A stretch of DNA of 64,000 nucleotides from Kribbella pratensis (GTDB taxonomy: Bacteria; Actinomycetota; Actinomycetes; Propionibacteriales; Kribbellaceae): NCBI RefSeq assembly GCF_004366075.1, contig NZ_SODU01000003.1, forward strand, positions 992,001-1,056,000, written 5' to 3'. The position numbers and the translations under genes are program-made. Under the pieces are notes generated by a model. That model did no database searches. It saw only the letters and a list, made by a program, of their open reading frames with translations, and was not told the DNA's origin. Below, piece by piece: positions 19,448 to 30,989 of this stretch. Position 1 is the first letter of the stretch; each line of letters begins with the position of its first letter.

Positions 19448-19480
19448 AGCACCGCCCGGCAGAGTCTGCCGGGCGGTGCT
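19448..19480. terminator. Strong hairpin downstream of groEL
   Basis: A perfect 15-bp stem (AGCACCGCCCGGCAG with its complement) around a 3-base loop, about 33 bases after the groEL stop. No T tract on either strand. Placed to end the groES-groEL message. Confidence 0.7.
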
Positions 19481-28777: not shown

Positions 28778-29704
28778 TCAGTTCTTCTCCAGTACGGATA
28801 CCTGGACGCCGGATGCGGCCCATCGCGGACCCACCGGAGTGATCCGCAGCGACCGCGTCTCGTCGGTGTCGTCGTCCCCACGGGTCACCACGATGTCCAA
28901 CCGATCGGGCGCCAGCGCCTCGGCCAGCCCATGACCCCATTCGACCACTGTGACCGCGTCCTCCAGGCTCGCATCCAGGTCGAGATCGTCGAGCTCCGCG
29001 AAGCCGCCGATGCGATACGCGTCGACGTGCACCAACGCCGGGCCGCCGGACAGCGACGGGTGCACGCGCGAGATCACGAACGTCGGCGACGTGATCGCCC
29101 CACGCACCTTCAGCCCGACGCCGAGTCCTTGCGTGAACGTGGTCTTGCCCGCGCCCAGGTCGCCGGACAGCACGAGTACGTCGCCCGCCCGCAGCTGACC
29201 GGCCAGCTCCTCGCCGATCGCCTGCATCTCGTCGGCGGTCGGCACGGTCAACTCGATCGGCATCGCCTTGGCGAAGGTCAGGTTGTGCGCCTGCTGGTCG
29301 ACGACGGAGTACCCCCGCCGCCTCCAGAACTCCACGGTGTCCGGCAGTTCGACCCGCGCGATCAGGTTCACCCGGCTGAGCCCCCGACGTACGGCGACCT
29401 CCTCCGCGCAACCGACCATCGCCGAGGCGACGCCACGGGCTTGGTACCGGGGGTCGACGGACACCCGGCGCAGGTTCAGGACGTCACCGACCTGCTCGAA
29501 CAGCACTGCCCCGAGCGGAACGCCGTCGCTCAGCACCAGCAACCCGCCGTGCTCGGCGATCGCCGCGGCCACGGTCGTCGCGTTCTCGGACAACGCCGTC
29601 GCCGGCGGGTCGAGAACCCGGCGCGCGGAGAAGGCGTGGTGGATCACATTGACGATGTCGTCGACGTGTTCCTGGGTGGCGTCGACGACGTGCAGATCTG
29701 TCAT
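28778..29704 (-). CDS. tsaE: GNAT acetyltransferase fused to t6A ATPase TsaE
   Basis: 308 aa, about twice the usual TsaE length. Residues 1-145 are a GNAT domain (motif RYQARGVASAMVG, then WRRRGYSVVDQQ). Residues 150-308 are TsaE with Walker A GDLGAGKTT (Lys187), SPTFVISR, HVDAYRI and VEWGHGL. TsaE hydrolyses ATP to reset the TsaB-TsaD complex. The fused acetyltransferase has no known role in t6A formation and may target ribosomal or tRNA-modifying proteins. The start codon lies 14 bases from the palindromic element. Confidence 0.9.
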   Translation of the reverse strand: MTDLHVVDATQEHVDDIVNVIHHAFSARRVLDPPATALSENATTVAAAIAEHGGLLVLSDGVPLGAVLFEQVGDVLNLRRVSVDPRYQARGVASAMVGCAEEVAVRRGLSRVNLIARVELPDTVEFWRRRGYSVVDQQAHNLTFAKAMPIELTVPTADEMQAIGEELAGQLRAGDVLVLSGDLGAGKTTFTQGLGVGLKVRGAITSPTFVISRVHPSLSGGPALVHVDAYRIGGFAELDDLDLDASLEDAVTVVEWGHGLAEALAPDRLDIVVTRGDDDTDETRSLRITPVGPRWAASGVQVSVLEKN

Positions 29705-29718
29705 CAGGAGGGTCCTAA

Positions 29719-29883
29719 AGGGGGTGTCTGATGGTTCCACGCCGTCGCGAGGAGGTGCTCGGTGCGGTGCATCGGCGTGCGGGGGCGAAGGTCTCGATGC
29801 GGAGCATCGTGGCCTTTGCACCCGTGCGGCGAGGTGCCGTGCCGAGTGCCCCGCAGTAGGCGGGGAACCATCAGACACCCCCT
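29719..29883. repeat. 165-bp palindromic (MITE-like) element
   Basis: Perfect 20-base inverted ends (AGGGGGTGTCTGATGGTTCC and its complement). The inside is also a long imperfect palindrome whose centre is CGATGC-GGA-GCATCG near 29802. Many arm differences are TG against CA, which become G-U pairs in plus-strand RNA. It lies inside an operon; its right end supplies the last codons and stop of the upstream hydrolase, and its left end lies just before tsaE. No coding capacity and no obvious target duplication. Confidence 0.75.
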
Positions 29884-30989
29884 AACGATTGTTCGGCTCG
29901 CTCGATCATCCCAAGGAGGGCCGCGGTGAATTCACGGTGGTGCTCGATCAGGCCCAGATGACCGCAGTTCTTCACCTCGACCAGCTCGGCGCCGGGGACC
30001 CGCCGGACGATCTCCTCGGCGTGGGCGAACGGTGTCAGATGGTCCTTGTCGCCGCCGACGACCACGCACTCCACCTTCTGCAGCGGCTCCAGGGAGTCGT
30101 ACTTGTCGTGCAGCGCGAAGATCGGGTAGAACTCCGCGATCACCTCGATCGGCGTCGCCGCGATCATCTCGTTGACGAACTCGGTGAACGCCGGCGGCAC
30201 CTCGGACCCGAACGAGTACTTCCGGGTCAGCAGGTAGCTGATGTCCGTGCCGGCCTTCCGGCTGCGCTCGACCACGTCCGGGATCCGGGCCAGCGCGGCG
30301 ACCGTCGGCGTCGCGAGCGCCCGCGCGAGCATTCCGACCTTGCCCGGGAACACGATCGGCACCTGGTCCAGCCCGCCGGCGCTGGTCGAGCACAGGCCGA
30401 CACCGATCACCCGGTCGCCGAACAGCTCGGGATGCTGCTCGGCGAGCGCCATGATCGTCATACCGCCCATCGAGTGACCGATCAGGATCACCGGCCCGGT
30501 CGGCGCGAACCGCTCGATGATCCCGTACAGGTCCCGGCCGAGCTGGTCGATGCTGACGTTCGCCTTCGCGGACCGGCCGGAGCGTCCGTGCGAGCGCTGG
30601 TCGTAGAACACCATCGTCCCGATGCCGGCCAGGTCACGGCGCTCGAAGTGCCAGGCGTCCATGTTCAGGCCGTAGCCGTGCGCGAAGATCACGGTCAGGT
30701 CCTCGGGCGGCAACGGCAGCTTCCGGCCGAGCCGGCGCTTCGGCGGTGGTGCGGGTCGCCGTGAGCGCTTCAGCTCGTCTACTTCGACATACAGCTCGAC
30801 ACCGTCGTCGGCGGTGAAGATGTACGGCGTCCCGCGCTGGGACCCGAACGGCTCGGCCTCGAGCTGTTTGCGTTGCCCTGAGCGCCGGCCGATCACCTGG
30901 CGCTCGACCGCGACCCCGGCCGCGGCTCCCGCGGCCAGCACTCCGACCGCGGCCCCGATCAGACCAGCAGTCCGCCCTGCTTTGGACAT
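29871..30989 (-). CDS. Membrane-anchored alpha/beta hydrolase in the alr-tsaE interval
   Basis: 372 aa. An N-terminal hydrophobic segment (residues 8-28, AGLIGAAVGVLAAGAAAGVAV) is followed by a linker and an alpha/beta hydrolase domain with GHSMGGM, HGYGLNMDAW and the C-terminal His in NCGHLGL. A hydrolase at this place between alr and tsaE is common in actinobacteria. The last residues (LGGV and stop) are encoded by the end of the palindromic element, so the native C-terminus was probably slightly different. Confidence 0.85.
   Translation of the reverse strand: MSKAGRTAGLIGAAVGVLAAGAAAGVAVERQVIGRRSGQRKQLEAEPFGSQRGTPYIFTADDGVELYVEVDELKRSRRPAPPPKRRLGRKLPLPPEDLTVIFAHGYGLNMDAWHFERRDLAGIGTMVFYDQRSHGRSGRSAKANVSIDQLGRDLYGIIERFAPTGPVILIGHSMGGMTIMALAEQHPELFGDRVIGVGLCSTSAGGLDQVPIVFPGKVGMLARALATPTVAALARIPDVVERSRKAGTDISYLLTRKYSFGSEVPPAFTEFVNEMIAATPIEVIAEFYPIFALHDKYDSLEPLQKVECVVVGGDKDHLTPFAHAEEIVRRVPGAELVEVKNCGHLGLIEHHREFTAALLGMIERAEQSLGGV

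Follow-up and report, generated by a model that had tools for sequence, protein, structure and literature searches.

The palindrome at the hydrolase-tsaE junction

Kribbella is a genus of soil bacteria. We analysed a stretch of 64,000 nucleotides of Kribbella pratensis, hereafter the window. Its minus strand carries, in this order, the genes of an alanine racemase, an alpha/beta hydrolase, a GNAT-TsaE fusion and a TsaD-family protein. Between the hydrolase and the fusion lies a 165-base element (29719-29883), an imperfect palindrome over its whole length with 20 perfect terminal pairs. The features are the following.

28778-29704, minus strand: GNAT-TsaE fusion gene, starting 14 bases past the element; it overlaps the hydrolase stop in relatives with an empty site
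29716-29717: left TA of the 2-bp target duplication; the empty sites of relatives carry one TA
29719-29883, plus strand: palindromic MITE; its canonical strand, the one that folds well, is plus and runs antisense to the operon around it
29719-29738, plus strand: left terminal inverted repeat, perfect over 20 nt; its sequence is copy-specific and its self-complementarity is kept
29741-29762, plus strand: 5' half of the asymmetric internal-loop motif, consensus GCCGTNGCGAGSAGGYGCYCGR, from which single copies deviate
29763-29841, plus strand: distal hairpin, conserved in the genus, of other sequence in Kineosporia and genome G046, and deleted in short forms
29842-29861, plus strand: 3' half of the asymmetric internal-loop motif, consensus YCGRGTGCCSCGCAGYAGGY, from which single copies deviate
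29864-29883, plus strand: right terminal inverted repeat, partner of the left 20-nt repeat
29871-30989, minus strand: alpha/beta hydrolase gene, whose final codons and stop now lie inside the element
29883-29884: right TA of the 2-bp target duplication, again with one TA at the empty sites of relatives

We confirmed the palindrome, which far exceeds what chance would produce. The plus strand folds as RNA at -133.4 kcal/mol, against a mean of -76.3 for shuffled sequences (z -13.2), and the minus strand at -100.9 kcal/mol (z -9.8); none of 200 shuffles was as good for either strand. When arms of at least 13 bases lying at most 200 bases apart are considered, the next longest perfect arm in the window has 16 bases. 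The predicted fold contains 11 G-U pairs on the plus strand and 2 on the minus strand, because an arm difference that gives G-U on one strand gives A-C on the opposite one. An earlier note on this DNA had described a 165-base palindrome with 20-base perfect ends and an imperfect interior, whose arm differences are mostly G-U on the plus strand, and our calculations bear out both the coordinates and the pairing. Placed between the two TA dinucleotides, the refined unit is 29718-29882. The G+C content of the MITE is 70%. A search of Rfam with the element gave nothing at the gathering score; its five matches, all below gathering, are four eukaryotic miRNA precursors (the best with 51.9 bits against a gathering score of 268) and one lncRNA region, and were rejected. 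No promoter-like (sigma-70-like) or terminator-like site was found around the element. Elsewhere in the window, at 19448-19480, lies a hairpin unrelated to the MITE, with perfect 16-base arms and a 1-base loop.

As the earlier note had it, the hydrolase stop is provided by the element (TGA, 29873 to 29871, minus strand), and 14 bases separate the end of the element from the GNAT-TsaE ATG at 29704. We located the orthologous junction in all 38 genomes of the genus and read it in 30 of them. According to a motif scan, 28 of these 30 junctions are without the element, which is present only in the own genome (G000) and in G026. The four closest relatives (G021, G023, G029 and G025) have a single CTAG at the junction and no element. 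By inspection, the hydrolase stop and the tsaE ATG overlap in all four, in the form ATGA in G023 and TGATG in the other three. The hydrolase ends in ...EQSLGP(S/T) in G021, G029 and G025 and in ...EQSLGGV in the own genome, where its stop now lies ~166 nt upstream of the tsaE start. Read from the sequence, the loss of the stop-start overlap follows directly, and the insertion would have altered the last two hydrolase residues, shifted the stop and ended the overlap. The case shows how an operon with t6A-synthesis genes gained a long hairpin.

In a tree of 22 of the 30 junction loci, G000 and G026 fall into separate well-supported clades, each with empty relatives, and therefore two changes are forced by starred (well-supported) branches. 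For the element in G026, the most plausible history is a second insertion, independent of the first, into the same TA; this is simpler than one gain followed by several traceless losses. The two insertions have the same orientation. A regulatory role needed for tsaE, which the earlier note had considered, does not agree with 28 of 30 junctions lacking the element and with the apparent origin of the other two by separate insertions. A different repeat containing TCGCTTCGCTCCCTGCGCTC fills the hydrolase-tsaE gap in three relatives (L085, L088 and L089, from G001, G035 and G036), and therefore the junction has been invaded repeatedly by unrelated repeats. The TCGCTTCGCTCCCTGCGCTC-containing repeat also occurs once in L169.

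Dispersal, mobility and insertion sites

The earlier note had proposed a BLASTN check for dispersed copies and empty sites, and both were found. In addition to the empty junctions, the own genome has 11 long copies, the junction copy included, and several fragments, and all 38 genus genomes match the element at E 0.001, some of them weakly. The copy counts per genome are lower bounds, with 22 and 24 candidates scored per genome. We compared the joined flanks of 117 copies with the loci in hand to find empty sites; several other matches were ragged and uninformative. The own copy L004 and its empty counterpart L296 in Kribbella sp. VKM Ac-2569 have two TA in the filled site and one TA in the empty site. 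L132 and L155 compared with L041 are compatible with a TA duplication, and so is the hydrolase-tsaE junction. Of the 117 copies, only 27 have TA at both flanks. The element is mobile and duplicates TA on insertion, and it is not a fixed tsaE regulator. Thus, of the two possibilities raised in the earlier note, the mobile MITE-like unit is supported, by the dispersed copies, by orthologous sites with and without the element and by a TA duplication. For the selected hairpin that tunes tsaE, a needed role at this locus is not supported, while selection on the hairpin is retained for the element itself. We found no description of a palindromic Kribbella MITE family in the open-access papers searched, and we class it as a new palindromic MITE family. 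The element had no match in the plasmid and phage collections.

Copies are occasionally found close together. Two copies lie head to tail, ~9 bases apart, at G019:C25:431627-431944, the right flank of L045 starts a second element copy, and Kribbella sandramycini L215:7643-7828 has two motif matches 163 bases apart.

A motif pattern was used to select the 117 copies out of 126 loci, with the own-genome fragment loci (26) and the transposase and tsaE loci set aside. They are not a random sample, because the 126 loci include the best matches per genome, and the pattern misses copies without the motif. Gene context was assigned by a codon-position G+C rule without annotation, by which genes broken by an insertion go unrecognised and 5' ends are the longest-ORF starts. 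Only 3 of the 117 copies lie inside an open frame running through them by this codon-bias rule, and 42 lie within 5 nt of a gene 3' end. Only one copy adjoins a longest-ORF start, but predicted starts of this kind often extend into the element, and the number is therefore not reliable. In the window, CTAG occurs 12 times where base composition predicts 184, a ~15-fold depletion, and the preferred insertion context is therefore rare. This CTAG context may often coincide with TAG stops. TATA, TTAA and ATAT are also rare in the window, and GATC and TCGA exceed expectation by more than 3-fold. For annotation, it should be kept in mind that insertion at rare TA sites remodels gene ends and gene coupling in these genomes.

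Arm pairing, strand asymmetry and the internal-loop motif

The outermost 21 pairs of the 117 copies comprise 2342 Watson-Crick cells, 57 G-U, 6 A-C and 52 otherwise unpaired, and pairing drops immediately outside the TA ends. The outer arms vary from copy to copy with self-complementarity retained, and the core is 120-124 nt long in the 117 copies. In an alignment of 30 copies, 99.0% of the cells are paired and 29 of 67 pairs have changed on both sides; none of 500 shuffles was as high, which is not a probability since the copies are related. Slid controls of this alignment gave 10-14 pairs with two-sided changes and 34-50% paired cells. Eight short forms (L014, L015, L016, L235, L242, L245, L257 and L282) have most of the distal hairpin deleted; in this pattern-limited search, they retain the arms and the internal-loop motif.

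The two strands of the element are not equivalent. If the canonical strand is defined by the motif, it has the more stable fold in all 117 genus copies, by 32 kcal/mol on average, and also in 10 of 10 copies from other lineages, in one further Kineosporia copy and in the longer G046 copy. At arm positions 3-21 we counted 50 G-U against 5 A-C, or 34 against 5 with repeated contexts collapsed; the copies are not independent, and strand-biased mutation may add to this G-U excess. In copies with a canonical strand antisense to the genes on either side, the G-U to A-C ratio is 16:1; in those where it is sense to both, the ratio is 13:2. The G-U bias of the arms is independent of the direction of host transcription. 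Where the two neighbours run in one direction, 40 copies have the canonical strand antisense to them and 23 have it sense (p = 0.043), a weak indication that mRNAs tend to avoid the better-folding strand. The canonical strand is likewise antisense in the copy at the hydrolase-tsaE junction, where the mRNA carries the weaker-folding strand, and the insertion may have been tolerated there perhaps for this reason.

Bacterial MITEs are often regarded as inert transposon remnants. The more than 100 copies found here amount to a mutagenesis experiment done by nature, and they suggest that the fold of one strand is under selection. The hairpin appears to be selected for the element itself, because the strand-specific fold is kept in every copy examined, whatever the neighbouring genes, and so the single-strand structure of the MITE looks selected in its own right. 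The selected feature could be the single-strand fold with its internal loop, acting either as strand-specific ssDNA or as RNA, in the latter case as a structured transcript or an RNase III substrate.

The internal-loop motif is found beyond the genus. A pattern scan of named genomes gave at least 114 stretches, among which 105 have the two-sided motif. The stretches listed belong to Kribbella species, with four from Kineosporia rhizophila (L216, L231, L274 and L305) and two from Streptomyces; Kineosporia is placed in Kineosporiales and Kribbella in Propionibacteriales, which are different orders. We rejected the two Streptomyces records as one-sided chance matches, having no right half of the motif and no covariance-model match below E 0.2. 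A covariance model built from 30 copies found the element in one non-genus genome, G046, among 79 others sampled in the order; G046 belongs to another family and has 8 copies. The alignment from the covariance search was left out, since it mixed both strands. The Kineosporia and G046 copies are 164-167 bp long (one G046 copy is 191) with the hairpin retained, and their arms and distal stem differ in sequence, with GCCGTNGCGAGSAGGYGCYCGR opposite YCGRGTGCCSCGCAGYAGGY persisting. In a cross-lineage alignment of 19 copies, whose distal part is unsure, 27 of the 34 invariant columns fall within two blocks of the element, positions 22-43 and 125-142, which together make up 40 of its 165 positions; these bounds were set after viewing the alignment. 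The tandem U-G/G-U step in the motif is kept across lineages, with UG in 17 and GU in 19 of the 19 copies. In a phylum sample of 396 genomes, the strict two-sided motif pattern, which would miss variants, matched 0 of the 395 besides the own genome, and the family is therefore patchy and rare elsewhere in the phylum.

We compared copies at orthologous sites as well. Among 15 flank pairs, four were dropped (one flank only or crossed), and in the 11 orthologous copy pairs left, the 231 arm positions include 8 double changes, of which 7 are Watson-Crick, and 5 single ones. The Watson-Crick double changes include transversions, and core variants switch in blocks. These observations point to conversion between copies or arm-templated correction acting in addition to selection, and chiefly on their account we refrain from attributing the covariation to selection alone.

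An alternative hypothesis could be that the element is an ordinary MITE, with its arm complementarity produced by DNA processes only, such as template switching and copy conversion, and its G-U excess by strand-biased mutation. The orthologous sites speak for it, as double Watson-Crick changes, transversions included, are as common there as single ones and the same core variants switch. However, correction from arm to arm should also erase the conserved bulges and the tandem U-G/G-U step, and the motif persists where most of the other sequence has changed. We regard this hypothesis as rather unlikely, and as the most serious of the alternatives.

Selection on the single-strand fold, the reading we prefer, may be carried one step further. 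We tentatively speculate that the element persists and propagates through its strand-specific fold, with the asymmetric loop and wobble pairs being recognised on one strand by a protein, in ssDNA transposition or in a structured RNA, and with the arms and distal stem free to drift as long as they remain paired. This is a possibility that we would not yet back over its negation. If true, the family would represent a mobile element of fixed length that is encoded by its structure and has a patchy spread between orders of actinobacteria. The copy series and the motif in distant relatives make structural recognition of the hairpin directly testable. The sites attC of integrons are sequence-variable hairpins that are recognised by structure, and their unpaired bases set the choice of strand. 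Unlike attC, the Kribbella MITE has no integrase link, has a TA duplication and has different ends.

Known repeats and a candidate transposase

The element has the properties by which bacterial MITEs are described (PMC2229807): it is short, non-coding and dispersed, with terminal inverted repeats and a TA duplication shown by an empty site. ERIC, Correia/NEMIS and RUP are described there as MITEs of 100-200 bp, mostly intergenic, with terminal inverted repeats and long stem-loop transcripts, and the Kribbella MITE is like them in size range, absence of a protein, TA ends and target duplication. Unlike these families, described in the same source as mostly A+T-rich, it has the high G+C content given above. 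It also differs from them, as far as that description extends, in its 20 perfect terminal pairs, its palindromic nature throughout, its copy-specific arms, its strand-asymmetric fold and a motif common to another order. The BOX, RUP and SPRITE elements of pneumococcus are interspersed repeats with predicted RNA structure and paired terminal inverted repeats, and the ends of RUP resemble IS (PMC3049150). BOX is described as modular and variable in length (PMC3049150), whereas the Kribbella core is one hairpin of 120-124 nt. MITEPye1 of Paracoccus is likewise low-copy and preferentially intergenic, with a foldable transcript and terminal inverted repeats resembling a known IS family (PMC11578231); its ends are of IS1182 type, and strand asymmetry is not among the features described for it in the part of that source cited here.

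GTAG/CGTC REPs are described as having alternative complementary stem residues, GT pairs, a location downstream of genes and possible donation of TAG stops (PMC3733652). These likenesses, together with the GTAG contained in the element motif, would be expected if the element were a REP/REPIN-like repeat moved as ssDNA by a Y1 (RAYT-type) tyrosine transposase. But REPs of this kind are 20-40 bp long and the GTAG REPs are tied to Y1 transposases (PMC3733652), while Y1 (PF01797) was found in a single one of the 38 genus genomes, which is not the own genome, and neither the TA target duplication nor the 165 bp with long terminal inverted repeats fits such a repeat, so we consider this origin improbable. 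Still less probable, in our view, is a locus-specific RNA hairpin selected for control of tsaE expression: the element does adjoin the ribosome-binding region of tsaE and both junction insertions share an orientation, but the junctions read are nearly all empty, those of the four nearest relatives included, the family is dispersed across the genus, and the better-folding strand is antisense to the operon.

We therefore favour, as the likely explanation, a non-autonomous TA-inserting MITE of ~165 bp that is all hairpin, with a putative IS5-type partner and a selected single-strand fold. The partner is the weakest link. PF13358, PF13340, PF13586, PF01609 and PF13546 were not detected in the own genome, the sole genome searched for PF13358, the domain of an IS630/Tc1-type partner. 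Neither an IS630-type nor an IS701-type partner is supported; for the latter, PF13546 occurs in 11 of the 38 genomes and not in the own one, and the two IS701 ends compared did not match. Five other IS ends were compared with the MITE arms, and 33 to 209 of 300 shuffles did as well.

The only IS found with matching ends is L058 (684-1598), a 915-bp IS5-family element with TA at both ends, present in one congener (G036) and not in the own genome. Of 20 positions compared, its two terminal repeats share 15 and 16 with MITE arms, a level reached by 0 of 300 shuffles for each, and its reading frames match PF13340 and PF13586 in two frames. For the IS427 group, 10 of 11 elements are reported to leave 2-bp repeats and some members to use two frames (PMC3281130); the TA duplication of the MITE, also of 2 bp, agrees with this property. 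The end match, the frames and the 2-bp repeats therefore point to an IS5/IS427-like partner. The MITE is probably moved by transposases of the IS5/IS427 type, the partner being absent or lost in the own genome, and an IS5-family (IS427-group-like) transposase supplied in trans would recognise the ends of the element. Within the genus, PF13340 was found in 8 of the 38 genomes and PF13586 in 4.
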